DNA of 64,000 nucleotides, from contig NW_024882037.1 in assembly GCF_019059575.1 (NCBI RefSeq), positions 372,001 to 436,000 of the forward strand. Direction: 5' to 3'. Origin of the DNA: Amphibalanus amphitrite (lineage: Eukaryota; Arthropoda; Thecostraca; Balanomorpha; Balanidae). Position numbers and translations under genes: made by a program. This document shows, piece by piece, positions 20,212-54,850 of this stretch; the first letter of the stretch is position 1, and each line of letters starts with the position of its first letter. The notes under the pieces are model-generated. The model made no database searches and was not told the DNA's origin. It worked only from the letters and a program-made list of their open reading frames with translations.

Positions 20212-20227
20212 AGGCAAGCCTCAGGCG

Positions 20228-21124: not shown

Positions 21125-22136
21125 GGTTCTGCGACACCTGAGCGAGCGGCATTTCAGCGAACGACATTTGAGCGAAGCCTTTTCAGCGATTATCAATTTA
21201 AGCGATTGACTTTTTCAGCGATTGTCAAGTAGGCGAATTCAATCACAGCGATTATTAACTTAAGCGAGGACCAGAATCAGCGAAACCAGATTGAGCGAAT
21301 ATATGGAGGTCAATGGGGGACCAATTGAGCGAATACAGTTACAGCGAAACCGAACGCGACGGAAGTCAATTATTTGCTACTTTCCGGGAATTCTTGCCCT
21401 TGGAATACCCGCTTAGTATGTGTTATGCTTCAAGCTGCGCGCGACAAATTAAAAATTTGTTTTTAAGCTTGGAAACCACAAAAATATCTGGCCTCATTCT
21501 GCAACTTTGATCTGGAGATGTGGTACGTGAGAGATAGGACGACGGAAGGAATGCCAAGGACCAATAATAAACTCGAGGGATGGCACGGTCTATGTTTCAG
21601 GGACCTCACCCAAATATCTGAAAATTCGTACGTTGCTTGGGGAAAGAACAAATTTTTACGACATGGGACTGATCCAAATTCAAGCGGGGGAATTTCGCGA
21701 AAAACAGCACAAGCAATGTGAATCACTGGACAAACGTTTGGTCACCATTATTGGCAAACAGCAGGGGGGTGAAATCGAACCGCTGGATTTTTTTTAGAAG
21801 TGTGGCATTAAATTTGGAGCTTAATGTCTGAACTTTGAATGTGACATCCGCCATTCAGTTCCGGAGATAACCATGAAAAGTTCCGGAAACATTCGTTGGA
21901 CGTGTGCTCGCAAAAAAAAAACACCGTTACGCGACGATGAAGTGTTTCGCTGAAATGACAGTCGCTCAAACTGTAGTCGACGAAATAGATGTCGCTGAAA
22001 CATAGCTTTCGCTTAAATTGATAATCGCTATATTTGATAGTCGCTCAATTTGATATTCGCTAAGTTGCCAGTCGCTGAAAATGGTTCGCTCAAATGACGT
22101 TCGCTCAAATGACACTCGCTAAAGTCGCTCGCACCG
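21125..22136. mobile_element. foldback-like element with arms made of ~16-bp TCGCT repeats
   Basis: Inserted in the retrotransposon ORF with a perfect 9-bp duplication GTCCTCCTG (21116-21124 and 22137-22145). Each arm is about 200 bp. The right arm is a run of some 12 units that begin TCGCT and repeat every 14-17 bases (for example TCGCTCAAATGACGT). The left arm is the inverse, with AGCGA units. The outermost ends are only loosely alike. The middle (about 21350-21920) is unique AT-rich DNA without a transposase frame. A 9-bp duplication with repeat-built inverted arms fits Drosophila FB-type or Mutator-type non-autonomous elements. Confidence 0.85.
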
Positions 22137-32566: not shown

Positions 32567-33849
32567 GAGAGCACGACGTTCATAAAGTTGGCTTCAAATT
32601 CGGATTCGGATTCCAGCACCACATTCGTGGAAAAAATGACAAAAACGGACCCCTTAGAATCAATTTAAATTAACAGGGTAGATAGAGCAGGACATGCTCA
32701 TTATGAAAATAAATCACCTAGGCTTGGCACCCCCTAAGAACTGAGGAATCTTAGGTCAAAGTTCAAGGTCATTCTCGGCGGACCCTTTGGATTCTCGTAA
32801 AAATTGGTACAACTATAGTCCATGAAGAGCTGATTTCAAAAATATCAGTTTCTTACTTTGGCAAGCAGCACGAACTGATATATAGTAGGTCAAAGGTCAG
32901 AATCAAGGTCACGTATGTGTAATACAGGAAGTGGAAGTGACCACGTGGCCAGGTGAGAAAGGAGTACCCCTTAGATTTCAATAACTTTTTGCTCAATGAT
33001 GCAACCAATGTTGGAGATGCTACTGCTGGTTTTTCTTGTTTTGGCAAGGTCAAACTACGGAGAAATGACGGGTCAAAGGTCAAGGTCATTTTTAGCGGAC
33101 CCTTTCGATTCACATATAAATTTTTATCCCAGTACAATTTTAAATGCTGGTTATTATTCTGCGTATTGTTAGGCTTGGCAGGTCTTAAATTATTTTAAAA
33201 TATTTAAATAATTTTACCTTTAATTCATCTATCCCAACATGGCTACCGTGCGAGCACCTATCAAAACCTTGATGAAAATAACAAACCGAAAATCTGAGAA
33301 ACGCGATTTGACCTTGGACTGCCCCGTGCAAGTGCACCGGCCTTAGGGGTGCTGAAGAACTTGATTTGGTAGGTATAGTGTGTTTTGGTGTGGGTTATTG
33401 TAATTTTAATGTATTGCACGTTGCCTGAATTGCGACACAACTTACAAAATTGAAATAGCAGTCGTAAGTAGTGTCAGTGTCGCAAGTTGACCTTGCCTTG
33501 GGGTATACCGAATAGGTCACAGGTCATTCGGGTCATTGCCTCAAAATTTACGTGGTACGTGTAAAATTCTTTGAACTTGAGATCCTGAAAATTTTGTTGC
33601 AGCCCGTTGATGCTAATGCAAGTTATAGAGCTTGAATTGACAGGTCGTCTATGAGGCCTCCATCCATGCCAGCGAGGCAGCAAGAGTGTTGAAAATGGTC
33701 CATAATATGCTATTTCACATTTATTGGGGTATTCAGGAATTGGAAGTAGCCTAACACCATTCCAGCAACTACTGGCGAATCCAGAAAGGCGGTCTTTGAC
33801 GTTGCAAGGGTCATCCCCCCAAAATTCTCCCGATTCCAAAAACTTGTCC

Positions 33850-36800
33850 CAGATGACCCCCATGACCTCCAACGAGCTCTGCGATGACCCCAAGTTGACC
33901 TTTTTGACCTGACATGTCCCAGATGACCTCCGTGACCTCCAGTTAAGCTCTGATAACTCTAAGCTGACCTCTGTGACCTGGCATGTCCCAGATGACCTCC
34001 ATCAGAGCTCTGTGATGACCCCAAGTTGACCTCTGTGACTTGACGTGTCCCATATGACCTCTGTGACCTCAAGTGACCTCTCTGATGACTCCAAGCTGAT
34101 CTATGTGACCTGGCATGTCCCAGATGACCTCCAATTGAGGTCTCTGATAACCCCAATCTGACCTCTGTGACCTGACATGTCCCATATGACCTCTGTGACC
34201 TCTAAGTGACCTCCCTCATGACCCCAAGTTGACCTGTGTGACATGACGTGTCCCATATGACCTCTGCGACCTCTAAGTGATCTCTCTGATTACCCCAAGC
34301 TGACCTCTGTGACCTGACGTGTATCATATGACCTCTGTAACCTCTATGTGACCTCTATGCTGATCCCAAGTTGACCTCTGTGAGCTGATGTGTCCCAGAT
34401 GACCCCCATGATCTCCATCAGAGCTCTGTGATGACCCCAAGTTGACCTCTGTGACTTGACGTGTCCCACATGACCTCTGTGACCTCAAGTGACCTCTCTG
34501 ATGACTCCAAGCTGATCTATGTGACCTGACATGTCCCAGATGACCTCCAATTGAGGTCTCTGATAACCCCAAGCTGACCTCTGTGACCTGACATGTTCCA
34601 TATGACCTCTGTGACCTCTAAGTGACCTCCCTCATGACCCCAAGTTGACCTGTGTGACATGACGTGTCCCATATGACCTCTGCGACCTCTAAGTGATCTC
34701 TCTGATTACCCCAAGCTGACCTCTGTGACCTGACGTGTCCAAGATGACCCCCATGACCTTCAATCGAGCTCTGTTATGACCCAGGTTGACCTCTGTGACT
34801 TGACATGTCCCAGATGACCTCCGTAACCTCCAATTGGGCTCTTTGATGACCCCAAGCTGACCTTTGTGACCTGACGTGTCCCAGATGACCCTCAATTGAG
34901 CTCTGTGATGACCCCAAGTTGACCTCTGTGACTTGACGTGTCCCATATGACCTCTGTGACATCAAGTGACCTCTCTGATGACTCCAAGCTGATCTCTGTG
35001 ACCTGACATGTCCCAGATGACCTCCAATTGAGCTCTCTGATAACCCCAAGCTGACCTCTCTGACCTGACATGTCCCATATGACCTCTGTGACCTCTAAGT
35101 GACCTCCCTCATAACCCCAAGTTGACCTGTGTGACCTGACGTGTCCCAGATGACCTCCGTGACCTCCAATTGAACTCTGATGACTCCAAGCTGACCTCTG
35201 TGACCTGATATGTCCCAGATGACCTCCAATTGAGCTCTTTGATGATCCTAAGCTGACCTCTGTGACCTAACGTGTCCCAAATGACCCTCAGTTGAGCTCT
35301 GTGATGACCCCAAGTTGACCTCTGTGGCTTGACGTGTCCCATATGACCTCTGTGACATCAAGTGACCTCTCTGATGACTGCAAGCTGATCTCTGTGACCT
35401 GACATGTCCCAGATGACCTCCAATTGAGCTCTCTGATAACCCCAAGCTGACCTCTGTGACCTGATATGTCCCATATGACCTCTGTGACCTTTCAGTGACC
35501 TCCCTCATGACCCCAAGTTGACCTGTGTGACCTGACGTGTCCCAGATGACCTCCGTGACCTCCAATTGAGCTCTGATGACTCCAAGCTGATCTCTGTGAC
35601 CTGATATGTCTTATATGACCTCTGTGACCTCAAGTGACCTCTCTGATGACTCCAAGCTGATCTCTGTGACCTGACATGTCCCAGATGACCTCCAATTGAT
35701 GTATCTGATAGCCCCAAGCTGACCTCTGTGTTCTGACATGTCCCATATGACCTCTGTGACCTCTAAGTGACCTCCCCCATGACCCCAAGTTGACCTGTGT
35801 GACCTGACGTGTCCCATATGACCTCTGCGACCTCTAAGTGATCTCTCTGATTACCCCAAGCTGACCTCTGTGACATGACGTGTCCAAGATGACCCCCATG
35901 ACCTTCAATCGAGCTCTGTGATGACCCAAGTTGACCTCTGTGACTTGACATGTCCCAGATGACCTCCGTAACCTCCAATTGGGCTCTTTGATGACCCCAA
36001 GCTGACCTCTGTGACCTGACGTGTCCCAGAAGGGCCCCAATTGAGCTCTGCGATGACCATAAGTTGACCTTTGTGACCTGACGTGTCCCATATGACCTCT
36101 GTGACCTCTAAATGACCTCTCTGATGACCCCAAGCTGACCTCTGTGACCTGACGTGTCCCAGATGACCCCCATGACCTTCAATCGAGCTCTGTGATGACC
36201 CAAGTTGACCTTTGTGACTTGACGTGTCCCAGATGACTTCCGTAACCTCCAATTGAGCTCTTTGATGATCTCAAGCTGACCTCTGTGACCTGACGTGTCC
36301 CAGAAGACCCCCAATTGAGCGCTGTGATGACCATAAGTTGACCTCTGTGACCTGACGTGCCCCCAAGTTGCCCTTTGTGACCGACGTGTCTCAGATGACC
36401 CCCATGACCTTCAATCGAGCTCTATGATGACCCCAACTTGACATCTGTGACCTGACGTGTCCCATATGACCTCTGTAGCCTCTACGTGACCTCTCTGATG
36501 ACCCCTAAGCTGACCTCTGTGAGCTGACGTGTCCCAGATGACCCCCATGATCTCCAACAGAGCTCTGTGATGACCCCAAGTTGACCTCTGTTACCTGACG
36601 TGTCCCTGAAGACCTCCGTGACCTTCAATTGAGCTCTCTCATTACTCCGAGGTGACCTCTGTGACCTGACGTGTCCCAGATGAACTCCAATTGAGCTCTC
36701 TGCTAACCCCAAGTTGACCTCTGTGACCTGACGTGTCCCAGATGACCCTCAATTGAGCTCTGTGAAGACCCTAAGTTGACCTCTGTGACCTGACCTGCCC

Positions 36801-36985
36801 CCAAGTTGCCCTTTGTGACCGACGTGTCTCAGATTGCCTCCGTGGTCTCCAATTGAGTTCTGTGATGACCCCAAGTTGACCTGTGTGACTTAGCGTGTCC
36901 CGCATGACCTCTGTGACCTCTAAGTGACCTCTCTGATGACTCCAAGTTGACCTTTGGGACCTGACGTGTTCCAGATGACCCCCAT
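33850..36985. repeat. TGACCT-rich minisatellite, left arm
   Basis: About 3.1 kb of irregular higher-order repeats. The core is like GACCTCTGTGACCTGACGTG, TCCCAGATGACC, TCCAATTGAGCTCTGATGAC and CCCAAGCT, in variable order. TGACCT recurs throughout, often as TGACCTCTGTGACCT. Long minus-strand frames here are only translations of the repeat. Confidence 0.95.
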
Positions 36986-36986
36986 G

Positions 36987-37078
<92 letters not shown>

Positions 37079-37084
37079 TCTCTT
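36986..37084. repeat. (CT)n microsatellite, left arm
   Basis: About 99 bases of CT repeats with a few TTT interruptions, mirrored by (GA)n at 40269-40341 in the right arm. Confidence 0.95.
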
Positions 37085-37178
37085 CACGTGCCGGTGTCGT
37101 GGATCCTATAGGCAAGTTTTGTACATACCAATGTTGATCCCCAGTCTCTGACCGGACATGTATTTTCCTTCCCGCAGG

Positions 37179-37296
37179 ATGCCGGCGGCGGCGACGACAG
37201 TGTGCCGGCGCACATCTCTATGGAGGTGGACACGGCGACCCGTGGGCGACCGCCGCTGCCGCGGTTTGCTACAGGTGGCCATGGCCACTAATCTGT
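37179..37296 (+). pseudogene. exon-like GC-rich end of the arm
   Basis: After a TTCCTTCCCGCAG acceptor the plus strand reads DAGGGDDSVPAHISMEVDTA and then TRGRPPLPRFATGGHGH before a stop. The same segment occurs inverted at 40058-40175 with a 2-base deletion and acceptor CTTAG. Its composition resembles the host exons and not the AT-rich arm. Captured host sequence is likely; the source gene is not recognised. Confidence 0.4.
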
Positions 37297-37384
37297 CACG
37301 AACTTCTGACAGTGAACGCCAGTCGGTTCTCGGATGTGAGGACGCGCCCGTCGAATAAAGTGACGGAGATGCACCGTGTGACAG

Positions 37385-37781
37385 TGTGCGTTTTCCGGGC
37401 GAGTTCGTTGCGCTGTGTGCCGGTCGTGCGCGGGACTGGTACCACCCGTCGTTCCACCAGTTCTCAGTGCTCCAGCGCGCCGTGCGCGATCTCAGTGCCG
37501 CCGCCGAGGAGAATGTGTGCCGCGAGCTGCCGCCCGAGGACCTGCCGGCGCTGACCCGGCTGGAGCCGCTGGCTGACGGCGCGCTGTCGCTTCGTCCTCC
37601 GACCCTGCGCCGGCCGCGCCGGGAGGCCGAACTGCTGACCCAGCTGCAGCAGCTGGCGGTGGCCCTGGACGGCGCCTGCCCCCTGGTGTTGGATGGCAGC
37701 TGCGGGAGCCACGTGACGCCGTCTGCGCTTTTGGCGCCAGGAGAGCTTGACGCTGCTGCGAGCACTACAGGGCTACTAGCG
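37385..37781 (+). pseudogene. exon-like open segment in the element centre, family unknown
   Basis: An open segment of about 132 codons between a GTGTGACAG acceptor and a GTACGT donor. Readable text includes FPGEFVALCAGRARDWYHPS, LQRAVRDLSAAAEENVCREL and AELLTQLQQLAVALDGACP. It is GC-rich with host-like codon use. I do not recognise the family. It may belong to the same captured gene as the SAM exon downstream. Confidence 0.45.
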
Positions 37782-38028
37782 GTACGTCACGTGCTGCTAG
37801 TTTTCTAGAGACGGATGTTTGCTGATATTAGGCTGTTAAGACTGAGCCGTGATGCTGTGGCCGGTGGGAGTGCCGGCGCCGGTCGTGGTGCACCCGACGC
37901 CCGGCGCTCCGCTTCGCGCTGCTACCACACAGGTAGGGTTCGGCACACCGACTCCCGATGGCTACGTGGACAGTGAAAATATTGCAATGTTATGGTACAG
38001 GTAGAGTGACCGTTCCGTTCTTTGTCAG

Positions 38029-38176
38029 GTCTCTGAATGGAGCTGCGTTCCGGTGGGCGGCTGGCTGCGCTCTCTCGGTCTGGCCCAGTACGCCGTCGCG
38101 TTCGTCGCCCGCTCTGTGGATGGCGCCCGGCTTCTGGGGCTCACCGAACAGGCTATGGAAGACGAGCCCGACGTCG
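38029..38176 (+). pseudogene. captured SAM-domain exon
   Basis: A 148-base exon between TTTGTCAG and GTGAGA, phase 0 to 1. It reads GGWLRSLGLAQYAVAFVARS then VDGARLLGLTEQAMEDEPDV, a clear SAM (sterile alpha motif) core with the Trp-Leu, Leu-Gln-Tyr, Val-Asp-Gly and Leu-Leu-x-Leu-Thr landmarks. SAM domains mediate protein oligomerisation. The segment at 39181-39337 accepts its phase and could be the last exon of the same gene. The source gene is not identified. Confidence 0.65.
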
Positions 38177-38353
38177 GTGAGAGATTCACATTGCTAGCTG
38201 AGAAGGTGGATGTGACTCGAATTATTCAGTTCATAGCCTGATTTATCTACCTTAATCTATTTATATGAATTGTATTGCCACCATTAACCTGACTCCTGAC
38301 TCGTGATTGTGGTTGCCTCAGTTGTAGGCCTTAAGTGCACCGCATTTTGACAG

Positions 38354-38716
38354 GTCTCGACGTGGCGACCTCGAAGCCAGCGTGTTGGGTCTCGGCTTCC
38401 CGCCACTCACCGGCGGACCTTTCCGCTTCGTGGACCGCATCGGTCCCGCACAGCTAGTCAAGGACATGGAGCGCTTCGCCGTCGTCAGTGGCGTCGGCTT
38501 CGAGCCGTGCCTGACCGTGCACTACCAGGCCGCTAGCGGCACCAAGTTCTGTTCGGCCGGGCCTCGTGTAATGCCCACATGTGATGACCGAGTGTATACG
38601 CATCTGAAGCCGCTCCGCGTGTGTGCCAGCGCTGGGCGTGTTCAGTTTCAAAGTAAATATAGAACCCTGGTGATCAAGCTACAGTTTTTGACGGGAAATA
38701 GAGTGAGGTCATTTTG
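38354..38716 (+). pseudogene. HADHA: captured C-terminal exon of mitochondrial trifunctional enzyme alpha (HADHA)
   Basis: After a TTTTGACAG acceptor the frame reads VLGLGFPPLTGGPFRFVDRI, then PAQLVKDMERFAVVSGVGFE and PCLTVHYQ. This aligns with the end of HADHA (family text GLGFPPxxGGPFRFVD, then a Phe-x-Pro-Cys near the C-terminus). The family normally stops soon after a Lys-Phe pair. Here the frame runs on past TKFCS for more than 40 codons to 38716, so the normal stop is lost. It sits alone between exon-like segments of a SAM-domain gene, so it is a fragment, not a working gene. Confidence 0.75.
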
Positions 38717-39180
38717 AAAGCGATCAGACGGTAGCGCCGCCGTTCTTTGGCACGCCTTAGCATGCATATGTGCTACACTAAAAGTTTAGGCTCGTGTCTT
38801 TCAAGGTCAGCAGGGTGAGGGCACCAGGTGCTTCAAGTGGCCTCGTCTCAGGTAGAGTTCTAATACTCGTTCTAATACTACCAAGTACCAACACACGTAT
38901 CTAGTCAAGGAGCTGAGTTGAAATCGAGGGGATGGGGGGCTGTTCAGCCCCTTCACTGGGGGGTTCACGGTTCAGCCCCTCCCCCATCAGGCGCGAAAAT
39001 CTAGGAGCCCCAGCGTGGAGTGAGATAACCTTTTCGACGGCATGTGATCGGGTATTGCATCGAATGACACTGGGCGATTGAAAGATGTTTCAGCTCGCTT
39101 GTCAAGGCAAACATTTATTCACAACGAAAACAGACATAGGCACATGTGGATTGCTAATGGATAATGGATAATGGCAGCAG

Positions 39181-39337
39181 GTAACACCCAGGTCGTGCGC
39201 CGTCTGCTGGAGAGCCAGCGGCTGGTGCGTCCTGAGCGGGGTCGCCACAGACGCCGCTCGTCACCCAGAAGCCGGAGACCGGCGGACCGGCCGGGACGCC
39301 TAACGACAGACACAACGACCGCTCATGGCGCTATGTA
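39181..39337 (+). pseudogene. possible terminal exon with Arg-rich tail
   Basis: After ATGGCAGCAG the phase-1 frame reads NTQVVRRLLESQRLVRPERG, then an Arg/Ser-rich stretch, to a TAG at 39335-39337. It can follow the SAM exon in phase. The assignment to the same gene is inference only. Confidence 0.35.
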
Positions 39338-40268
39338 GCGGGCTACCAGTGAGAGGTCACGGAAAGGTCAGCTCATAATGTGCGCGGCGTGACATACAGT
39401 GTTAATGTCATCCCGCGGTCGCCGGACAGTGAAAAATTGGACAATGACATTTCGCCGTCAAGACGAGCTCTACTGTCTACAAGACACAAGTAGTCTACAT
39501 ACTGTCTGCTACCGAAACTACTGTCGAGCTTCTTACTGTTAGTAAGAAATTACACAGGTCTAGATGCAATTCCAGCGATGAACTTCGGTAGTGCATGGCT
39601 TTGCAATTTCAATCACAAGATATTCTTGTTCATCGTATTATCGGCATGGTACTCGCTCGTTATCACGCTTGCGTGGGCATACGGTAGCTCAAGGAAAATA
39701 TGGATAATCGTAGAAGCCGGTATCAAGGGAATCCAGTGAGCACGAACACGCAGTACACGTGGGTGCTTTCTAGTTTCCTGGACGGTCACGCTTAGTGTAG
39801 CTAGCTCGGCCTTAAAAGATCATCACGGACACGGGGCTACGCGGCATTATATACCACCAGCAGACAGGATTTGATCTCCAGCAGACAAGCTTCTATCCGT
39901 GCCCCGCGCCGTCTCTCAACAATCGTCCACAGCCGCGGCTCCTGTGCACTGAGACGCTGTCACGACCGCGTCGTATTGCGACTGGAAGCAAGCCCACTGC
40001 CCGGTCTCTGCCGCGTCTCCCCGGCGGTTGGGACCTGTGCCGGGGGCGCCTCCTCCAACAGATTAGTGGCCATGGCCACCTGTAGCAAACCGCGGCAGCG
40101 GCGGTCGCCCACGGGTCGCCGTCCACCTCCATAGAGATGTGCGCCGGCGCACTGTCGTCGCCGCCGCCGGCATCCTAAGGGAAGGAAAAATACATGTCCG
40201 GTCAGAGACTTGGGATCAACACTGGTATGTACAAAATTTGCCTATAGGATCCGCGACACCGGCACGTG

Positions 40269-40341
<73 letters not shown>
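40269..40341. repeat. (GA)n microsatellite, right arm
   Basis: About 70 bases of GA repeats facing the (CT)n of the left arm. Confidence 0.95.
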
Positions 40342-40343
<2 letters not shown>

Positions 40344-43118
40344 GGGGGTCATCTGGGACGCGTCAGGTCACAAAGGTCAACTTGGAGTCATCAGAGAGGT
40401 CACTTAGAGGTCACAGAGGTCATATGGGACACGCCAAGTCACAGAGGTCAACTTGGGGTCATCACAGAACTCGATTGGAGACACGGAGGCAATCTGAGAC
40501 ACGTCGGTCACAAAGGGCAACTTGGGGGCACGTCAGGTCACAGAGGTCAACTTAGGGTCATCACAGAGCTCAATTAAGGGTCATCTGGGACACGTCAGGT
40601 CACAGAGGTCAACTTGGGGTTAGCGGAGAGCTCAATTGGAGTTCATCTGGGACATGTCAGGTCACAGAGGTCAGCTTGGAGTCATCAGAGCTCAAATAAA
40701 GGTCACGGAGGTCATCAGGGACACGTCAGGTAACAGAGGTCAACTTGGGGTCATCACAGAGCTCTGTTGGAGATCATGAGGGTCATCTGGGACACGTCAG
40801 CTCACAGAGGTCAGCTTGGGGGTCATCAGAGAGGTCACGTAGAGGTTACAGAGGTCATATGGGACACGTCAGGTCACAGATGTCAAGTTGGGGTCACCAT
40901 AGAGCTCGATTGAAGGTCATGGGGGTCATCTGAGACACGTCGGTCACAATGGCAATTTGGGGGCACGTCAGGACACAGGGGTCAACTTATAGTCATCACA
41001 GAGCTCAATTGGGGGTCTTCTGGGACACGTCAGGTCACAGAGGTCAGCTTGGGATCATCAAAGAGCTCAATTGGAGGTTACGGAAGTCATCTGGGACACA
41101 TCAAGTGACAGAGGTCAACTTCGGTCATCACAGAGCTTGATTGAAGGTCATGGGGGTCACCTGGGACACGTCAGGTCACAGAGGTCAGCTTGGGGTCATC
41201 AGAGAAGTCACTTAGAGGTCACAGAGGTCATATGGGACACGTCAGGTCACATAGGTCAGCTTCGAGTTATCATAGAGCTGGATTGAAGGTCATGGGGGTC
41301 ATCTTGGACACGTCAGGTCACAGAGGTCAACTTGGAGTCATCAGAGAAGTCACTTAGAGGTCACAGAGGTCATATGGGACATGTCAGGTCACAGACGTCA
41401 ACTTTAGGTTATCAGAGAGCTCACTTGGAGGTCATCTGGGACACCTAAGGTCACAGAGGTCAGATTGGAGTCATCAGAGAGCTCAATTGGAGGTCACTGA
41501 GGTCATCTGGGACACGTCAGGTAACCAAGGTCAACTTGGGGTCATCACAGAGCTCTGTTGGAGATCATGGGGGTCATCTGGGACACGTCAGCTCACAGAG
41601 GTCAGCTTAGGGGTCATCAGAGAGGTCACGTAGAGGCTACAGAGGTCATATGGGACACGTCAGGTCACAGATGTCAAGTTGGGGTCATCATAGAGCTCGA
41701 TTGAAGGTCATGGGGGTCATCTGAGACACGTCGGTCACAAAGGGCAACTTGGGGGGCACGTCAGGTCACAGAGGTCAACTTATGGTCATCACAGCGCTCA
41801 ATTGGGGGTCTTCTGGGACACGTCAGGTCACAGAGGTCAGCTTGGGATCATCAAAGAGCTCAATTGGAGGTTACGGAAGTCATCTGGGACACGTCAATTC
41901 ACAAAGGTCAACTTTGGTCATCACAGAGCTGGATTGAAGGTCATGGTGGTCATCTGGGACACGCCAGGTCACAGAGGTCAGCTTGGGGTCATCAGAGAGG
42001 TCATTTAGAGGTCACAGAGGTCATATGGGACACGACAGGTCACAAAGGTCAACATATGGTCATCGCAGAGCTCAATTGGGGCCCTTCTGGGACACGTCAG
42101 GTCACAGAGGTCAGCTTGGGGTCATCAAAGAGCCCAATTGGAGGTTACGGAGGTCATCTGGGACATGTCAAGTCACAGAGGTCAACTTGGGTCATCACAG
42201 AGCTCGATTGAAGGTCATGGGGGTCATCTTGGACACGTCAGGTCACAGAGGTCAGCTTGGGGTAATCAGAGAGATCACTTAGAGGTCGCAGAGGTCATAT
42301 GGGACACGTCAGGTCAAACAGGTCAACTTGGGGTCATGAGGGAGGTCACTTAGAGGTCACAGAGGTCATATGGGACACGTCAAGTCACAGAGGTCAACTT
42401 GGGGTCATCACAGAGCTCAACTGAGGGTCATCTGGGACACGTCAGGTCACAGAGGTCAGCTTAGGATCATCAAAGAGCTCAATTGGAGGTCATCTGGGAC
42501 ATATCAGGTCACAGAGGTCAGCTTGGAGTCATCAGAGCTCAATTGGAGGTCACGGAGGTCATCTGGGACACGTCAGGTCACAGAGGTCAGCTTAAGGTCA
42601 TCAGAGAGGTCACTTAGAGGTCGCAGAGGTCATATGGGACACGGCAGGTCACAGAGATCAAATTGGGGGTCATCAGTGAACTCAATTGGAGGTCATCTGG
42701 GACATATCAGGTCACAGAGATCAGCTTGGAGTCATCAGAGCTCAATTGGAGGTCACGGAGGTCATCTGGGACACGTCAGGTCATACAGGTCAACTTGGGG
42801 TCATGAGGGAGGTCACTTAAAGGTCACAGAGGCAATATGGGACATGTCAGGTCACAGAGGTCAGCTTGGAGTCATCAGAGAGGTCACTTGAGGTCACAGA
42901 GGTCATATGGGACACGTCAAGTCACAGAGGTCAACTTGGGGTCATCACAGAGCTCTGATGGAGGTCATCTGGGACATGCCAGGTCACAGAGGTCAGCTTA
43001 GAGTTATCAGAGCTAAACTGGAGGTCACGGAGGTCATCTGGGACATGTCAGGTCAAAAAGGTCAACTTGGGGTCATCGCAGAGCTCGTTGGAGGTCATGG
43101 GGGTCATCTGGGACACGT
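40342..43118. repeat. AGGTCA-rich minisatellite, right arm
   Basis: About 2.8 kb of the same minisatellite as the left arm on the opposite strand. A frequent unit contains CACGTCAGGTCACAGAGGTC followed by AACTTGGGGTCATCA. It contains dozens of AGGTCACAGAGGTCA direct repeats. Confidence 0.95.
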
Positions 43119-43827
43119 TTTTGGAATCAGGAGAATTTTGGGGGGATGACCCTTGCAACGTCCAAGACCGCCTTTCTGGATTCGCCAGTAGTTGCTGGAA
43201 TGGTGTTAGGCTACTTCCAATTCCTGAATACCCCAATAAATGTGAAATAGCATATTATAGACCATTTTCAACACTCTTGCTGCCTCGCTGGCATGGATGG
43301 AGGCCTCATAGACGACCTGTCAGTTCAAGCTCTATAACTTGCATTAGCATCAACGGGCTGCAACAAAATTTTCAGGATCTCAAGTTCAAACAATTTTACA
43401 CGTACCACGTAAATTTTGAGGCAATGACCCGAATGACCTGTGACCTATTCGGTATACCCCAAGGCAAGGTCAACTTGCGGTATTAGTACCCAGTAAACAT
43501 GCCGACGTCGGCCCGACGTCGGCCGACGTCGGGGTGACGTCGGCAACTCGGCATCGGCATGCCGACGTCGGCCCGACGTCGGTCCAACCTCGGCACGACG
43601 TCGGCTGGATGTCGGATATGCCCGCATGTTCCGACGTCCAGCCGAGGTCCAGCCGACGTCGGGCCGACGTCGGACCGAGATCAATTGCTGAGGTCCAGCC
43701 GACGTCGGGCCGACGTCGGGGCGACGTCGGACCGACATCGGCCGCTGTTTTGACCGTTAAAATAATATAAAATACATGTTTCATGTTTCATAAAGAGCTT
43801 CTGTATTCAAAATATCCTCAAGAAACT

Positions 43828-44285
43828 CAAATCTTCCTCCACGCCGCAACCCCCTGATCCGGACTGGACGGGAAACTTTATCCCAGTTGGGATTGCCCGT
43901 AAGCCGAGCTCGCCCGTATCCGGGTGCGGTGAGTGCTTGGGGGCTGCTCGGCCTATCCTTTGGTCAGGCTCAGCCCCGGCAACTCACCAGGGCCGGGCCC
44001 AGTTCATATAGAAAGGCCAGTCGGCAAGTGTCACTTTGCCAAAGTGCCACTTATCAAAGGGACACTTTGGGAAACGTTGGTGCAGGTGTGTAAGAGTGGC
44101 TATATGAATCCATTGCGGGGTCGCCCTTTCCAATAAGTGTCACGTAACAGCAATGGGACCAAGGACTCTATATGAACTGGACCCAGGGTGCTCACCAAGA
44201 AGACCAATGTCTCCATCCTATCATCCTTCCGGCTCTGAAATGGTCTTGCCAGACCGAAAGGGCATAACCCAACAAAACAAACTAA
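43828..44285 (+). repeat. dispersed ~300-bp repeat, copy A (interrupted)
   Basis: Starts near CTTCCTCCACGCCGCAACCC and ends near CCGAAAGGGCATAACCCAAC with an AAAACAAAC tail. It is split by a small inverted-repeat element at about 43995-44195. Sister copies lie at about 48185-48457 (+) and 54170-54480 (-). The A-rich CAAAA-type tail suggests a retroposed, SINE-like family. Confidence 0.8.
43995..44193. mobile_element. small inverted-repeat element inside dispersed repeat copy A
   Basis: Ends CCCAGTTCATATAGAAAGGC and, on the reverse strand, TCCAGTTCATATAGAGTCCT. Comparison with the two uninterrupted sister copies shows the repeat continues on both sides. The target duplication is uncertain (perhaps CCAGGG). 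Confidence 0.6.
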
Positions 44286-44296
44286 ATTCGCTATCT

Positions 44297-44369
44297 GGCT
44301 GCGTGGTGTAGTGGTTAGCGCACTAACCTCGCGTTCAAATGACACGTGGTTCGAATCCCATCGCCGGCT
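44297..44369 (+). repeat. tRNA-like head of a SINE (not a functional tRNA)
   Basis: A box TGGTGTAGTGGTTAGCGC and B box GGTTCGAATCCC are spaced as in a tRNA gene, but the acceptor and T stems pair poorly. A second B-box-bearing partial copy (GGCTCGAATCCCGCC) follows at about 44417-44440. Both continue into the same tail, TTTTGGCGYGTTGTCCCARTAAACATG, ending at the GACGTCGG motif, so this is a tandem SINE-like arrangement. Confidence 0.65.
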
Positions 44370-44761
44370 GATGCTTTTGGCGTGTTGTCCCAGTAAACAT
44401 GCCGACGTCGGCGACTGGGGGGCTCGAATCCCGCCGCCGGTTGATATTTTTGGCGCGTTGTCCCAATAAACATGCCGACGTCGGCCCCGTCGGTCCAACG
44501 ACAAACGATCTCGTCAACCTCGGCAAACGACCTCGGCCCGACGTCGGCTCGACGTCGGCTGGACTTCGGCTGGACGTCGGAACATGCGGGCATATCCGAC
44601 GTCCAGCCGATGTCGGGCCGAGGTTGAACCGACGTTGGGCCGACATCGGGCCGAGCCTCGGCCCGACGTCGGGCCGACGTCGGCATGTTTACTGGGTATA
44701 TATTAGGTCCGAGTGGACAATTGTGACGCTGTTGATACAAATATGTAACAGCAAAAATTTT

Positions 44762-44905
44762 AGGTTTTAGGTTAGGTTAGGTTGTAGGTTTGTAGGTTTT
44801 AGGTTTTAGGTTGTAGGTTTGTAGGTTAGGTTAGGTTAGGTTGTAGGTTTGTAGGTTGTAGGTTGGTAGGTTGTAGGTAAGTAGGTAAGGTTAGGTCAGG
44901 TTTGA
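44762..44905. repeat. interstitial TTAGG-like telomeric repeat tract
   Basis: About 140 bases of TTAGG and TAGGTT/TGTAGGTT variants, including runs such as TTAGGTTAGGTTAGG. TTAGG is the common arthropod telomere unit. The tract is degenerate and internal to a nested transposon. Confidence 0.8.
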
Positions 44906-45823
44906 TTATGTTTTTCTTTTATTTCCAGGACATATAAGTATCATTTTTGGATTCAGGATGTCAAATAATGTAAGAATATGAAAACTTTATCTTTTAACAG
45001 TCACTCGGACTTAATGTATACTTTTACCCAACTTGCGACACTGACACTACTTACGACTGCTATTTCAATTTTGTAAGTTGTGTCGCAAATCAGGCAACGT
45101 GCAATACATTAAAATTACAATAACCCACACCAAAACACACTATACCTACCAAATCAAGTTCTTCAGCACCCCTAAGGCCAGTGCACTGGCACGGGGCACG
45201 TCCAAGGTCAAATCGCGTTTCTCAGATTTTCGGTTTGTTATTTTCATCAAGGTTTTGATAGGTGCTCGCACGGTAGCCATGTTGGGATAGGTGAATTAAA
45301 GGTTAAATTATTTAAATATTTTAAAATAATTTAAGACCTGCCAAGCCTAACAATACGCAGAATAATAACCAGCATTTAAAATTGTACTGGGATAAAAATT
45401 TATATGTGAATCGAAAGGGTCCGCTAAAAATGACCTTGACCTTTGACCCGTCATTTCTCCGTAGTTTGACCTTGCCAAAACAAGAAAAACCAGCAGTAGT
45501 ATCTCCAACATTGGTTGCATCATTGAGCAAAAAATTATTGAAATCTAAGGGGTCCTCCTTTCTCACCTGGCCACGTGGTCACTTCCACTTCTTGTATTAC
45601 ACATACGTGACCTTGATTCTGACCTTTGACCTACTATATATCAGTTTGTGCTGCTTGCCAAAGTAAGAAACTGATATTTTTGAAATCAGCTCTTCATGGA
45701 CTATAGTTGTACCAATTTTTACGAGAATCCAAAGGGTCCGCCGAGAATGACCTTGAACTTTGACCTAAGATTCCTCAGTTCTTAGGGGGTGCCAAGCCTA
45801 GGTGATTTATTTTCATATATCGG

Positions 45824-47185
45824 GGTTACATGAGCACAGTAAATACGTATTTAGCCGCTAATTCGAATTAGGAACGCATTACCGACTCATGTAGCCACCT
45901 GCTAGTACGAATCGGCGATCCGATCCGCGGTTACATGAGCAAAGCAAATACGTATCACGATCGGATTCACCGCTAATGCGAATCAGGAGCGTACTACCGA
46001 CTCATGTATCCACCTGCTAATACGAATCGGCGGTCCGAACAAAATCCGCTGGGAAAGAGGCTTAGAAGCGAATAGGACCAAGATACGTATTACAGGAACT
46101 ATTTCTTCGCAAAAAGAAACATTAAAATGCAAAATAATAGGTATTTTTTTCATTTTCTTCTTTTGAAATAATATTTAAAAAATATTTCGGTATTTCGTCA
46201 AGCTTTCAACAATAAATATAATGAAAACCAAATAGTAAGTATCCACATAATTTCAGTTGAAACATTTTTCTGACAGCACTACAGACGAATCAAGAGAGGC
46301 AATTGCCCAATGAGTCAAAGCAAGACAACTTTATGTTCAACTTTTTTTTGTTAAGTTAATTGAGAATGTTTTGAGCAGATTAAATGCAAAAAAGACATAA
46401 GATAATTAATTTTTAATTTAGTCACCTCTATTGCTACGGAAGTGCGCCACATTTGTATGCTATTCCGTTTGTAATGCGCATCGGGCCGAGAGCCAAACTA
46501 GATCCGTTTGACGTCACTGATACGAATTTGCTCATGTAGTCGGTGCACTGAATGCGTTCTTGGGGAGCTGATCCGAATTAGCGTAGTGCGTATTTGGAAC
46601 GGCTCGCTCATGTAACCGAAACGTCCGAGGAACATGATTCGGGCCGTATTTCACAAGAACTATTCTTTGCTGACTGGAAGCGTCAAAATGCAAAATACTA
46701 AGCATTTTTTTTTATTGGCTGCCTCGTAGAAAATAGCAAAAAAATGTTGGTATTTTGGTTTAGTCTTTGCATGTGAAATAAAATGAATGAAATATTTTGA
46801 TAGATAATTTTTCTGACCACCCTGCTGTCGCTGCATGGCGAATCAGTGCACAGTGACTTAAAACAAGAAAACTTTGTTTTCATTTTTTGATTTCATGCTA
46901 ATTTTAAATGTTTTCGAGCCTATCAATTGATATAAGTATTTAAAATTTAGTTCAGTCGTCCCGGTAAATGCCGCAACTGCGCCATGACTGTACGCTAATC
47001 CTATTCCGTTTGTGATGCGAATTATCGGCCGTCGAGGAGTCAGCCCGGGTGAGCCAAACAAGATCCGTTTGACGTAGATAAAACGAATTAGTATCATGTA
47101 ACCGGTGCCGTAGATACGTTTGTGGGGAGCTGATGCGCATTAGCGTAGTGCGTATTTGGAACGGATCGCTCATGTAACCCCGGTA
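45824..47185. mobile_element. nested TIR element with internally duplicated body
   Basis: Ends are CGGGGTTACATGAGC (left) and the inverse GCTCATGTAACCCCG (right). The left arm of the giant element shows the uninterrupted target. The duplication is short and AT-only (TA-like), so the superfamily is unclear. The body appears doubled. A ~120-bp block with TTACATGAGC-AAATACGTAT occurs twice at the left. A block with GGGGAGCTGATGCGCATTAG-like sequence occurs twice at the right. No transposase frame is visible. Confidence 0.75.
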
Positions 47186-47783
47186 ATTATGAGCATGTCC
47201 TGCTCTATCTACCCTGTTAATTTAAATTGATTCTGAGGGGTCCGTTTTTGTCATTTTTTCCACGAATATGGTGCTGGAATCCGAATCCGAATTTGAAGCC
47301 AACTTTATGAACGTGAGAGCACGGGCAAGAGATATAGGGCCTTGGGCAAGAGCACGGGGGAGAAGAGAGGTATGTCGTGTCGATTCTAATTATTTTTGTT
47401 TCATAGCCCTGATGCAGTTTTGTTATTGCGAAAGTTAAGAAATATTATATTGATATAGTTGTAAAACCAAGAATTGCAAGTATCTCTGCAGGGTTTCAAT
47501 TCAATTCATTTGCACTGGGAGTTCAAGTTAAAATCTCCCAGTGCATAATGTGCATAATCTCCCATATAAATGAAAAGCAGAATGTGGTCGTGGATGGTTT
47601 TGGTTAATTTCTTCAATTATTTGTGAATGTCAATTTGTATGTTGATTCTTATTCAAGCTGATCTAAGCATGTAATTTTATTTATTTCATTTCCAGAGAGC
47701 CATTGCACCAGTCTGTTCATCTTAACACACTGATGAGGTTCCCCTTGAGGTGGTTGCTGTTTTTTGCTGTGGTCCGCAGAGGC

Positions 47784-48775
47784 GGCTGACATCTCAAACA
47801 GCAACTCAGAAAACATGGATTTGGAAAAAGCAACAAAAAACAGCAACTCGCTCAAAACAGCAGCCGCGCTTAGAGCGACCTTTTAGAATAGCGACTCACA
47901 TTTTTGAGCGCTTGAAAGGACAATCGGTAAAATCTTGATCTGTAATACCTAGAGCGACTTCAGAGGAACAGCGAAGCGACTTTTCTAGGCTATGGTGATT
48001 GGAGAAGCAAAAATCGAAGATTTCTTACGAAGCATAATAATATTTTTATATAAAATGTGCTTGTTTTGCATCATTGTTTATGTACTAAAAAATCAGTTTG
48101 GAGTCCATATCAAACTAAATTTCCTAACATCCTACTTGCAGGTTCGTTTCACTGTTCCATCATTTCCATCCTCACTTCTCAGGGCTCAGGACATTCAAGT
48201 CCTTCTCCTCCGACCTCCACACCTCAGCCCCATGTTCCGGGCTGGATGGGCAGCTTTATCCCATGCGGAAATGCCTGTAAGTGTGCGCCCGATGAGTGCT
48301 TCGGGGGACTGGTGAGTGGTCGGTCTGTCCTCTGGACGGGCCCAGCCCCGCCAACTCACCAGTGTGCTGGCCCAGGCCAATGTCTCCTCCTAATTCCTAT
48401 CATCCTTCCGGCCCTGAAATGGCTCATCAGATCGAAAGGGCCTAACCCAGCAAAACTGGTTCGTTTCAACTCAGTCGTTAATTCGTTTCGATGATGATAA
48501 GTGGTTTTTCGTTGACGTCGTTGATCGGGACAAATTGATTGCTAAGTTTCCTCCGATTGCGCTGGGATATCTGAGAATGTCAAGATGTTGATGTCCTTGC
48601 TTTTCCAATCCCCATCAGCTTAGAATAGTCTGTTACTCTGAAGCTGCTGTATTACGGATCGCCGTTTTAGAATTGCTCAAGCGTGATAGTCGCTCTTCTA
48701 GAGGTCGCTCAAAAAGTGATCGCTGTTTTTCTGTCGCTGTTTTTAAGTCGCTGTTTTCTGAGTCGCTGTTTGACA
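47784..48775. mobile_element. second foldback-like element with TCGCT-repeat arms
   Basis: Flanked by the perfect 9-bp repeat CGCAGAGGC (47775-47783 and 48776-48784). The right arm (about 48675-48775) is a run of 14-15-bp units beginning TCGCT, such as TCGCTGTTTTTCTG and TCGCTGTTTTCTGAG. The left arm (47784-47980) is the degenerate inverse with AACAGCAACTC and GAGCGAC units. It shares its design but not its exact unit with the element at 21125-22136. It contains dispersed-repeat copy B. It lies in the 5' flank or first intron of INPP5E. Confidence 0.8.
48185..48457 (+). repeat. dispersed ~300-bp repeat, copy B
   Basis: Shares GGCTGGATGGGCAGCTTTAT-like, TGGGCCCAGCCCCGCCAACTC-like and AATGTCTCCTCC...ATCATCCTTCCGG segments with copies A and C. 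Ends CCTAACCCAGCAAAAC. Confidence 0.75.
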
Positions 48776-52200: not shown

Positions 52201-54850
52201 AAATGATGACCTTTGCCTCTCTGTAGTTCCAGAAGAGGCGAGCTACAGCATACGGCAGCCTACGGCCATCAAGACAAAAGGATGCGTCGCCGTCGGGTTC
52301 CAGTTTTTCGGTGAGTTGTTTACAGAACAGTGCTTTGTGTAACATAATGACATGCTGGGTCACGTACCTCTACGTATTTCAAAATTGTTTTAGAGGTCTA
52401 CATATGGGTGATAACTTTGTTTCGTAACTAAACAATTGAATATCACATCTATGTATCTTCTGTCCCCTTTTCTCCGTGTGTGGGTTTATGACCTGTGCTC
52501 ACCACCACGTCCCTACGCCGCTGCCTCGGTATGTGACCGCCGACCCCTCCGGCGCCCGCAGGGACCACCTTCCTACTGCTCACCTGCCACCTGACTGCCC
52601 ACCTGGAGAAGCAGAACCAGCGGATAGACGACGTGCGCCGCATCTGCGCCGCGCTCGACCTGCCCCAGGCCATCCCCAGCCGCAGCAGCAGCAGAGGTGG
52701 GCACCGGCGGGCCGCCACCGGCTGTAGGGATACGACAGGCCGTACTGGGGGCAGTAGCGGGTAGGACTGCATTTTTGATATTGCGAAGTCTTTTTATATG
52801 CGCGTTAAAAGTTTTTCGAAGGTCATATTTCCCGTAGCGCTTGCATAGCACAGCTAGCTTCAACGTCACATTTATCGACGCAAATCCAGTTCAGTGCTTC
52901 TTCATTCATAAATCTAACCGACCATGGGTCATAACCTATGCCCCTCGTCCCCCGTCTTCCCACAGACGTGACGGAGCGGTACGACAACGTATTCTGGTTC
53001 GGCGACCTCAACTTCCGCCTGCACCAGAGCCGGCCGCGCGTCATCGACACCATCGTCGAGAGCTCCAGCACAATCCTGCTCCGCGAGCGAACCATGTCCG
53101 AGGCGTGTATGCGCAGTCTGCTCGAGTGGGACCAGCTCAACCACGCCAAACACAAAGGTGCGCACTCGCCGTGGTGAGGGAGGATGGGATTTGATCTGGG
53201 AAGTCTCTCCGATCGGGGAGCACACTCCGAGCAAAGGCCGAAGTGTCTTGTTTGATGGGAAGTCTAATTTTACTCTGGAGTCGTCTAGATTGTGAAGGAA
53301 AAATAATGCCGTCATCGTTAACCCAAATTATGGCTGGTAGTGATCTATCTTATAGTATCATCTTTTATCGCCGGAATCTGATATTCGTATTGAGTGACGC
53401 CGCCCCCCGGTCGACAGGTCGGGCTTTCGAGGGCTTCAACGAAGGCGACATCTCGTTCCTGCCCACCTACAAGTACGACCCGGGAACGAACACGTTCGAC
53501 ACGTCACACAAGCAACGCATCCCCGCCTACACGGACCGGATCCTGTTCAAAAGCCGGCGCGACGGCGTGCGGTGAGCACAATACCGGTCACGGCGGTAGA
53601 TGGGATGTCACAATAGTGAACGGCCGTTTGGGTTGTGTGAGAGCTAGGGATCGCCAGTGGGCTCTGCTGAATATGTGTGATAGAAGACAGCTTCTTTGAT
53701 GACTGGTAACATAACCAGGCTTCCCGCTGCTATACTATTCCCGCTGCAGCCTATGCTATACCCCGCCGCACTGTGTTAGTTTTGCACTATTTCAAGCACG
53801 AGGTGTCCCCTCACCGTTCATTCACATCGATTTTTCAGTTGAATCAGGCTCTAACCTCCCTTCTTGTCCCGTTTCACAGGTGCATCAAGTACGATTCTGT
53901 TCAGCCGTTCAGTACGTCGGATCACAAGCCTGTGTGGGGGCTGTACCAGTGTCGGATACGGCCTAGTCTCGACAGGTGAGACAGATGATAGGACAAATTG
54001 AAGGTATTGAGAGATTACAAACCCGTCTGGTGGCTGTACCAGTGTCGGATACGGCCTAGCCTCTAGAGGTGAAGCAGTACGTGAGGAAGGACGAGAGATT
54101 AGATTAAACATGAACCAGTCTGGGGACTGTACTGTCCAGTGCTGTCAGTACTGAATGCTGTTTGGGCAAGTTTTTTTTTGTTTTTTGTTTTGTTTTGTTG
54201 GGTTAGGCCCTTTCGGTCCAATTAAGACCATTTCAGAGCCGGGAGGATAATAGGATATAGGGGGAGACATTGGTCTGGGCAGGCACCCTAGTGAGTCGCC
54301 GGGGCTGAGCCCATCCAGAGGACAGGCCACCCAGTCCCAAGGCACTCACTGCACCCGGCTACGGGGTGCGCTCCCTCGGGAGCAGCGGTGCCGCTCCAAG
54401 GGAGCAGCCCGCATGAGATAAAGTTGCCTGTCCAGCCCGGAGGGGGGTTGCGGCGTGGAGGAGAAGGATTTCAGTATCCTGAGGATAGAAGCACGGAACG
54501 GAGGTGTGTTCGGGCAAGGGGAAGAGAGGGTGTTTCAGGTGTGTGAGGCTAGTGTGTGTAGTAAAGTGACAATTACTGTCATTTCGACGACTCTGGGTTA
54601 CATCGAGGGCGTTCGTCGCTTTCAAGTATGTGTTAACGTACCCTGGACGTGAGCTGGTGCTATTTTAGTGTCTGTTAATGTCAGAGCCACATCCTGAGTG
54701 TCACACCTCTGTCCCGCCCCGGTGTGCCGCAGCATACCGCTGGCGGCCGGCCAGTTTAACCGGGCCGTGTTCCTGGAGGGACTGCGGCGCCGGGCGCGCC
54801 ACCTGCCGGCCAGACGGGTCTCTGACGGACGGCCGTGCAGCGTCCAGTAG
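49226..54850 (+). CDS. INPP5E: inositol polyphosphate 5-phosphatase E (type IV, ciliary)
   Basis: Ten exons join in phase: 49226-49980, 50334-50441, 50778-50895, 51684-51906, 52227-52310, 52562-52696, 52966-53157, 53418-53571, 53880-53975 and 54733-54850. The product is 660 residues (human 644). The enzyme removes the 5-phosphate of PI(4,5)P2 and PI(3,4,5)P3 in the primary cilium membrane. The first ~285 residues are Pro/Ser-rich and probably disordered. The catalytic domain shows VGTWNMN (~320), [41 protein letters not shown] (~484), PAYTDRILF (~573) and [11 protein letters not shown] (~604). The C-terminus has FNRAVFL, matching the ciliary targeting FDRELYL of the human protein. It ends CSVQ, a CaaX box for farnesylation. 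I chose the Met at 49226 within exon 49193-49980; an in-frame Met at 49169 lies before the acceptor and would not be in the mRNA. Confidence 0.94.
54010..54075 (+). pseudogene. INPP5E: duplicated fragment of INPP5E exon 9 in intron 9
   Basis: This segment repeats the end of exon 9 (GGCTGTACCAGTGTCGGATA, then CGGCCTAG). It reads [16 protein letters not shown] before a TAG, and its donor GTGAGA has become GTGAAG. It looks like a decayed tandem duplicate of about 70 bp and not a usable exon. Confidence 0.8.
54170..54480 (-). repeat. dispersed ~300-bp repeat, copy C
   Basis: Inverted relative to copies A and B and the best preserved. On the minus strand it runs from CCTTCTCCTCCACGCCGCAA to GACCGAAAGGGCCTAACCCA, then a tail of (CAAAA)n and poly-A. 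It sits in INPP5E intron 9. Confidence 0.85.

Follow-up and report, generated by a model that had tools for sequence, protein, structure and literature searches.

A multicopy family of giant foldback-ended DNA transposons with a predicted transposase-bearing form

In all likelihood, a 14.7-kb block in the window (the whole 64,000-nucleotide stretch of Amphibalanus amphitrite DNA analysed here) belongs to a multicopy family of giant foldback-ended DNA transposons that move by cut and paste; it would be non-autonomous, moved by the transposase of longer members. This transposase would bind the long arms, excise the whole unit and cut the target in a staggered manner, and the cut would then be filled in to give the 9-bp duplication.

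Results

Boundaries and arms of the window copy

The original prediction described inverted ends of near-identical sequence, arms of about 4.7 kb and a perfect 9-bp duplication directly outside them. The duplication and the ends are as described: on the + strand of the window GAGAGCACG occurs only at 32567 and 47315, and on the − strand it was absent from the whole window (Table 1). At one given position, nine bases would agree by chance with a probability of ~4e-6 if all bases are equally frequent. Both arms start with ACGTTCATAAAGTTGGCTTC, which the window contains once per strand, at 32576 (+) and with the outer end of the − copy at 47314. By BLAST the outer arms match in three pieces (124/126, 778/789 and 414/420) with a 9-base overlap, the last running 56 bases into the minisatellite. 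A single alignment that excludes the minisatellite and two insertions has 1249 identical bases among 1266, 17 differences and 13 gap columns. The predicted arm length applies to the unbroken left arm; the right arm is its counterpart plus the two insertions at 45818-47188 and 43480-45028, and therefore spans 7.26 kb.

Table 1. Features of the window copy (positions in the window)
Feature	Position	Strand	Remark
9-bp target site duplication GAGAGCACG, left copy	32567-32575	+	exact match
Left arm	32576-37296	+	4.7 kb, one piece
Left arm, outer non-minisatellite part	32576-33844	+	
Left arm minisatellite	33845-36990	+	71-bp period
Left arm (TC)n microsatellite	36987-37083	+	
Exon-like module, left copy	37084-37296	+	loop junction at TGT, 37294-37296
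Loop with host gene fragments	37297-40057	+	transposase half absent
Fragment of presumed host gene	37323-37726	+	88% identical to G000:C414:255100-257100 (475-aa open frame)
SAM-domain exon (38029-38184) and intron-like bases after it	38026-38224	+	84% to a stretch of G000:C41:858600-859800
Fragment like C-terminus of trifunctional enzyme alpha (HADHA)	38364-38555	+	between two SAM-gene pieces
Putative second exon, SAM gene fragment	39177-39302	+	place seen in family; splice signs by eye
Right arm	40058-47314	−	broken by two later insertions
Exon-like module, right copy	40058-40266	−	taken as original copy
Right arm minisatellite	40346-43118	−	71-bp period
Insertion, itself composite	43480-45028		8-9 bp duplication (C)AACTTGCG, read by eye
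MITE-like insertion	45818-47188		ends CGGGGTTACATGAGC, read by eye
9-bp target site duplication GAGAGCACG, right copy	47315-47323	+	exact match

The left arm keeps the empty sites of both right-arm insertions. Another copy of the family (C607) is inserted into a member of the same MITE-like family as the insertion at 45818-47188, and its paralogous empty site lies within the window's nested insertion. TTAGG-like repeats are present at 44758-44902. A sister locus (C251) was considered as the empty site of the window copy and rejected: the element is absent there, but ~1.8 kb of other sequence is present. The prediction that the element moved recently is borne out for the family, whose empty sites reach 100% identity. 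For the window copy itself the evidence is softer: C251 falls short of a clean empty site, and two nested insertions have already accumulated in the copy.

A transposase-like frame in longer members

Transposase DNA is present in three of the 11 copies read, in open frames of 1227, 1450 and 1394 aa; the window copy lacks it, as expected from the prediction that its transposase comes from elsewhere. The frames encode an Ulp1-type protease together with a DDE-type core that bears a weak resemblance to MULE transposases. D229, D301, C344, H347 and E507 are invariant in eight relatives and in the query protein, that of C417. The C..H between the second D and the E is a mark of the DDE triad of the MULE superfamily. 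The distance from the first to the second D is ~72, and that from the second D to the E is ~206 in one relative, C53. Pfam MULE (PF10551) matches were obtained for three of the eight relatives (best 1.3e-4, 22.7 bits against a cut-off of 27.6), and none in the 909 aa scanned of the 1227-aa C417 protein. The search for an autonomous MULE relative yielded three copies with an intact frame; the MULE matches, all in the relatives, stay below the Pfam cut-off. Peptidase C48 was matched at 2.3e-7, and at 2.8e-11 in C53. By eye, the C-terminal domain of the C53 type retains H, D, Q and C, and the C417 type has N instead of D. Neither FLYWCH nor a PHD finger was found in Pfam scans of the cores of the eight relatives (E up to 10) and of 909 aa of C417 (E up to 1), which lie outside the repeat-rich N-terminus. 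A C-x4-C..H pattern is visible by eye only. The single PDB match to the DDE core profile (E 0.34) was discarded as chance, and a search of viral contigs with the relatives' alignment gave 19 pattern matches and no relatives. For the three frames dN/dS is 0.18-0.32, resting on 4 to 14 substitutions per pair. In C53 element ends could be matched at 1211357/1236095, and no 9-bp repeat was recognised at these ends.

Judged from its sequence, the intact gene of the larger relatives is a predicted transposase that probably moves the family. A different enzyme could be the mover and the frame mere cargo, given that the MULE match is under threshold and that eight of 11 copies are without the frame. 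We consider this improbable in view of the DDE-type residues invariant in nine proteins, the three close full-length genome matches of the core, all inside the element, and a 59%-identical relative that sits between arms of the same design. We infer that the DDE/Ulp1 frame is the transposase and that movement is by cut and paste.

Copies, empty sites and insertion as one unit

In the 807.55-Mb genome 19 copies with paired ends were found; units of the family are 13-32 kb long. Fourteen copies have perfect 9-bp target duplications, all different. The duplication is imperfect in C209 (8/9), exact over 8 bp in C23 and over 7 bp in C1494, and absent from the outer ends of C1784 (1/9) and C336 (2/9). 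Using the joined flanks of six copies, we found uninterrupted empty sites for four, with 96-100% identity: C961 (C78, 100% over 267 bp), C1471 (C2088 and C978, 100% over 253 bp), C417 (C1054, 98% over 214 bp) and C370 (C446, 96% over 296 bp). For C493, 40 of 512 candidates were scored and gave no empty site; C1084 has a left flank that is itself repetitive. The matching untouched sites show that copies whose present length is 17 to 32 kb each entered as a complete unit. The prediction that the block moved as a single unit is upheld at the level of the family; the empty-site check succeeded for four of six copies, and for the window copy it met the unclean C251 locus.

Two separate inverted elements, each arm being mobile alone, would be compatible with C614, which has one end only among the matches listed. 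This explanation is very improbable: it is the outer ends that carry the duplications, the four empty sites pass directly from one flank into the other with neither arms nor loop, and the loop is common to all ten other copies read (C1084 with only ~1.0 of 1.8 kb), which contradicts the view of the arms as independent elements ending in the centre. Assemblies are known to go wrong at long inverted arms of near-identical sequence, but a false inverted join that doubled one stretch can practically be dismissed, as the outer arms differ at 17 aligned bases, the two insertions occur in one arm only, other contigs hold 18 further paired copies, of which 13 have perfect duplications of their own, and the empty sites are uninterrupted.

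Arm likeness and origin of the window copy

In nine of 11 copies the two arms are closer to each other than to any other copy, and in eight they are sisters (supports 0.49 to 1.00, the value for C417 being only 0.49); the left arms of C1471 and C961 are closer to another copy than to their own right arm. The likeness within nine of 11 copies suggests that arms are homogenised within copies, presumably by gap repair or template switching between them. The window copy descends from a longer member by deletion. The exon-like module is single in the three transposase-bearing copies and occurs twice, inverted, in the window copy; long arms with the inner microsatellite and this module are found in the window copy and four others. 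Such arms could have arisen in one copying event by which the other arm, copied in inverted orientation, took the place of the transposase half, with a junction at the 3-bp TGT common to both templates.

Each of the 11 fully read copies carries the 71-bp-period minisatellite. That of the window copy is rich in AGGTCA, with 130 sites in the left arm against 13.8 expected; the outer part of this arm has 12 against 0.59. The minisatellite portions of the two arms align at 74-88% in many registers. In the 59%-identical relative the unit shares the 71-bp period and the motif but otherwise differs; taken as a whole, the two units show no significant similarity (a score as high as that observed was obtained in 43 of 200 shuffles). 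The chance of a shared 10-mer is ~1% by arithmetic, the 10-letter motif having been chosen after both units were seen. Two 4-kb stretches of a 47% relative (C82), one on each side of the core at a distance of ~3 to 7 kb, contain four AGGTCA sites, no 71-bp array and no inverted match, and the arm design is therefore not established clade-wide. We regard the AGGTCA-rich repeats as putative docking sites of the transposase.

Host gene fragments in the loop

At 37735 the loop lacks ~1.05 kb found in six of ten other copies; two more have 412-414 bp of this stretch. The fragments apparently derive from three host genes. By sequence likeness the candidate parents are C414 (84-88% DNA), which we take as a host gene, C41 (84% DNA), the HADHA-like C297 (73% protein) and C156 (68% protein), and these may be the actual parents. 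In the other loop frames SAM was the only Pfam match above cut-off. When the cargo exon is compared with the C414 frame, dN/dS is 0.38-0.60; pairing the window copy with other copies gives 0.49-0.69, and pairs drawn from C417, C961 and C370 give 0.80, 1.63 or an undefined value. A stop interrupts the exon in five copies. We read the cargo as probable passengers.

Discussion

These observations can be combined into one possible, though rather doubtful, reading. Arms with a 71-bp pitch and AGGTCA/GTGACCTGAC would be docking arrays whose period and motif are kept in two families, and a large transposase complex would move units of 13-32 kb. The arms would be kept alike by copying each other, and a single event of this copying would suffice to turn an autonomous copy into a dependant with long arms. 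By removing SUMO or a related tag, the Ulp1-type protease would spare the complex from host control. If the docking-array reading is true, a Mutator-type enzyme moves units far beyond its usual size; a 2026 arthropod MULE survey recorded no element longer than 10 kb (PMC13359780). The genome combines inserted units of now 17 to 32 kb, clean empty sites and intact long frames, and it also offers derivatives whose deletion junction can be read, as well as cargo from host genes. To our knowledge, foldback elements are mostly known as relics without transposase. With this family, the movement of such long units, the role of long repetitive arms, and the origin and lasting likeness of foldback arms become testable questions.

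Comparison with known systems

Polinton/Maverick elements have short target duplications of other length, which the 9-bp duplications do not fit. A NOF-like protein in the loop is a feature of Foldback elements. The class is further characterised by long composite inverted arms, with an outer unique part and then tandem repeats, around a loop, and this architecture is found here. Polinton/Maverick elements encode a family B DNA polymerase (PMC6431247, as cited); no DNA polymerase was found in the two long-copy proteins scanned.

Drosophila FB4 and Ssk-FB4 share with our element repeat-bearing long arms, a captured host gene, a moved copy without its own transposase, and target duplications (9-10 bp in FB4; perfect 9 bp in 14 of 19 copies here); the Ssk-FB4 system has been called Pack-MULE (PMC8277862). 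Likewise, host fragments lie here between terminal inverted repeats and have candidate parents in the genome, as in Pack-MULE / Pack-TIR elements. FB4 arms measure ~0.7 kb (PMC8277862), in contrast to the 4.7-kb left arm with its kilobase minisatellite; moreover, intact-frame copies exist here, and the cargo comes from apparently three genes. Tm1, a Mutator/Foldback element of root-knot nematodes judged inactive, also has arms of composite build in which the number of repeats varies, duplications of 9 bp, a type that encodes the transposase alongside deletion derivatives, and a host-like motif. Its transposase is of the Phantom kind, with 496 aa and an incomplete FLYWCH (PMC3169594), unlike the 1227-1450 aa with Ulp1-type protease here. 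FLYWCH is typical, not universal, of Phantom, and was not matched in the parts scanned.

The arthropod MULEs surveyed in 4268 genomes share the DDE core and terminal inverted repeats. The first-to-second D distance of ~72 falls within the 60-76 of most clades, and the second D to E distance in C53 (~206) exceeds the 120-135 of most clades, with 214 in one. They differ in length (1.4-10.0 kb against 13-32 kb), inverted repeats (13-1193 bp, up to 1527 in one table row, against 4.7 kb) and transposase size (up to 1136 aa against 1450 aa) (PMC13359780). Rehavkus likewise has 9-bp duplications, a minisatellite adjoining the terminal inverted repeat, and arthropod hosts, but its minisatellite is one-sided, whereas ours occupies both arms, and its transposase has a PHD finger, which was not found in the parts scanned here (PMC6446971). 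Galileo also has long, internally repetitive arms, which hold several transposase binding sites, but uses a P-element-type transposase with a THAP domain (PMC3688188). Duplications of 8-11 bp and long terminal inverted repeats define the MULE superfamily (PMC6446971); the family has both, and the DDE triad with C..H occurs in the eight relatives and C417. The element works like a Mutator/Foldback Pack element, and its size, its arms and its protease fusion set it apart from the systems compared here.

Structure and Distribution of the Element

As originally predicted, the window copy is a foldback element with GAGAGCACG at both ends and inverted arms; an uninterrupted length of about 4.7 kb applies to the left arm only. 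GAGAGCACG occurs twice in the whole window, and is absent from the minus strand. Both occurrences abut the element ends, which read identically inward for the first 46 bp before the first mismatch. In the outer parts of the two arms, 1249 of the 1266 bases aligned are identical, with 13 gap columns set aside. Two insertions interrupt the right arm, and the corresponding empty sites are preserved in the left arm. A sister locus on contig C251 (C-numbers denote contigs of the same genome, G000, and the element copies on them) is 92% identical to the left flank and 85–96% identical to the right flank. This locus lacks the element; where the insertion would lie, it carries some 1.8 kb of different sequence, and GAGAGCACG is present once within the 8.5 kb compared. 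It shows the absence of the element, but is no clean empty site.

Coordinates of the element and of other features in the window and elsewhere in the genome
Feature	Location	Remarks
Window copy	32576-47314	
Target duplication GAGAGCACG	32567 and 47315	plus strand
Left arm	32576-37296	
Exon-like module	37084-37296	inner end of left arm
Junction	37294-37296	TGT
Loop	37297-40057	
Composite insertion in right arm	43480-45028	8-9 bp duplication, palindromic GCCGACGTCGG arrays, TTAGG-like array; SINE of tRNA-derived look (by eye)
Small foldback-like element	21125-22130	about 1 kb; TCGCT-type tandem repeats in arms; splits the next frame
Non-LTR-like reverse transcriptase frame	20174-24191	
Third foldback-like structure	47745-48775	TCGCTGTTTTTAAG repeats in arms
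Repeat within third structure	~48214-48456	also at 43836-44281 and 54189-54487
Homeodomain frame	57595-58368	minus strand; Pfam 1.3e-21; Gsx/ind-like by eye
Sister locus	G000:C251:749000-757500	
Cluster of transposase-core pieces	G000:C433:10999-48635	many decayed pieces, mostly 53-86% identical, many with stops
Cluster of transposase-core pieces	G000:C122:1009305-1049716	as for C433
2549-aa frame	G000:C1891:61764-66455	first 149 residues of core matched three times

Searching the genome of the window (807.55 Mb, 2644 contigs) with the start of the arm (241 bp of the left end), as proposed with the original prediction, returned at least 45 matches, a lower bound from the best 40 of 71 candidates scored. 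At least 19 inverted end pairs on one contig, including the window copy, span 13.05 to 31.9 kb; we used the full sequences of ten other copies and, for the last eight, their end pairs. Perfect 9-bp duplications, no two the same, flank 14 of the 19. The duplication of C209 has eight of nine letters alike, C23 and C1494 have exact duplications of 8 and 7 bp, the latter offset, and none was found at the ends of C1784 and C336. For C23, C1494, C1588 and C900, the duplications were read off the ends by eye, in the last two cases because their right end has G for A and lies outside the exact end pattern used for the others. The HADHA-like fragment of the loop was found at 22 places on 21 contigs (94–100% identity), two of which (C323 and C628) are absent from the list of end matches.

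The prediction that the block moved as one unit gains support from empty sites. For six copies, we compared the joined flanks plus one duplication against the rest of the assembly, and found uninterrupted flanks for four: C961 (C78, 267 bp, 100%; also C550, 97%), C1471 (C2088 and C978, 253 bp, 100%), C417 (C1054, 214 bp, 98%) and C370 (C446, 296 bp, 96%). The matched sites may be alleles or copies of the flanks. The present lengths of the four copies, which include nested insertions of later date, range from 17.4 to 31.9 kb. No empty site for C493 appeared among the best 40 of 512 candidates, and C1084 has a high-copy repeat as its left flank. C607 inserted within a member of a MITE-like family; another member, nested in the right arm of the window copy, has the C607 target place with a single nine-mer (seven of nine letters alike).

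A Candidate Transposase

Three copies (C417, C961 and C370) have in common 6.3 to 7 kb that is absent from the other eight of the 11 copies read. In it lie open frames of 1227 aa (C417), 1450 aa (C961) and 1394 aa (C370). The frame begins with a repeat-rich N-terminal part, continues with a core that has D, D, C..H and E, followed by another repeat region, and ends in a C-terminal domain. Pfam matches this domain to Peptidase C48 (Ulp1; 4.7e-6 in the frame scan, 2.3e-7 when excised). The same domain in C53, a 59%-identical relative, scores 2.8e-11, and its best solved relative is SENP1 (1.4e-7). Where the C53 type and SENP1 have D, inspection by eye shows N in the C417 type.

The core has at least 83 matches in the genome (best 79 of 157 candidates scored). 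At least 11 are relatives of 59 to 34% identity over nearly the whole core and stop-free within it; their open frames range from 1092 to 2549 aa. Many of the remaining matches are fragments containing stops. The DDE residues are invariant in the query and eight relatives, three of which match the Pfam MULE domain (best E 1.3e-4, 22.7 bits, under the cut-off of 27.6). MULE kinship of this putative transposase is likely, though we do not regard it as proven. The three frames are few changes apart (dN/dS 0.18–0.32). Comparison with C53 (dS 1.75, dN 0.30) speaks for longer-term selection on the protein.

Arm Repeats

Arrays with a 71-bp period are present in all 11 copies. C53 is also flanked by inverted arrays (47.8 and 59.2 units of 71 bp), plus a 660-bp GA tract. 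The consensus units of the window copy and C53 have no significant overall similarity, as 43 of 200 shuffles reach the observed score. The motif GTGACCTGAC, chosen after inspecting both units, was counted 21 and 18 times in the two arrays of the window copy and 24 and 52 times in the C53 arrays; both loops and the remaining 49 kb of the window lack it. AGGTCA is found 12 times versus 0.59 expected under a first-order model in the outer 1269 bases of the left arm, 130 versus 13.8 in the left array, and 4 versus 1.15 in the loop. Its density in C53 is 19–30 per kb inside the arrays and 0–1 per kb across most of the loop. Sampling 8 kb of the 47%-identical relative C82 gave no array and no enrichment of the motif. 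AGGTCA is also the nuclear receptor half-site, so the repeats may have some connection to host hormone receptors. We prefer the reading that the AGGTCA-rich arms may serve as docking sites for the transposase, by analogy with Galileo (PMC3688188).

Probable Arm Homogenisation and Proposed Origin of the Long-Armed Form

Using a 788-bp arm segment from 11 copies, we found that the two arms of a copy group as sisters in eight (supports from 0.49 for C417 to 1.00), the exceptions being C961, C1471 and C1494. Identity within a copy (98.2–99.7%) exceeds that to the arm of any other copy in nine of 11 (not C961 and C1471); several of these margins are below 1%. C370 is the strong case (own arms 98.6%, nearest other copy 91.3%), and C1084 resembles it (99.4 versus 95.8). 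We infer that the arms of a copy have been homogenised, so arm divergence would be no safe measure of age.

The exon-like module occurs once in the transposase-bearing copies, and twice, inverted, in the window copy, C1494, C1471, C1084 and C209; the latter four align with the window copy across the junction. C1784, C607 and C493 contain one module and no transposase. Judging from the right arm (CTAATCTGTTGGAGG), C417 (GGTGTGTCACGAAC) and the window copy (CTAATCTGTCACGAAC), the junction is a switch inside a TGT common to both templates. In the simplest reading, repair would have copied the other arm inward, including microsatellite and module, with loss of the transposase half. Such copying would explain the odd module order remarked upon in the original prediction.

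Cargo

One loop piece matches a 475-aa frame at C414 (84–88% DNA identity), which has no Pfam match and is presumably a host gene. Also in the loop is a SAM exon together with intron-like bases, matching C41 at 84%. Between the SAM pieces lies one resembling the HADHA C-terminus, for which C297 (73%) and C156 (68%) are candidate host loci. The same pieces are found in the transposase-bearing copies. At C469, C596, C973 and C751, SAM and HADHA pieces lie about 200 bases apart (76–77% identity), perhaps representing a sister family of greater age that carries the same chimera. The ratios of changes, and stops in the cargo of five copies, suggest that these pieces are passengers.

Comparison with Known Elements

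No description of such a family appeared among the matches listed from mostly non-subscription literature; by their titles, the four papers combining Mutator-like, Ulp1, transposase and MULE all concern plants. For MULEs, a survey published in 2026 and covering 4268 arthropod genomes gives 1.4–10.0 kb (PMC13359780), and a review states that DNA transposition falls markedly beyond about 6 kb of cargo (PMC6431247). The nearest precedent for a foldback carrying a host gene is Ssk-FB4 of Drosophila (PMC8277862); among Mutator/Foldback families that have a transposase, it is Tm1 (PMC3169594).
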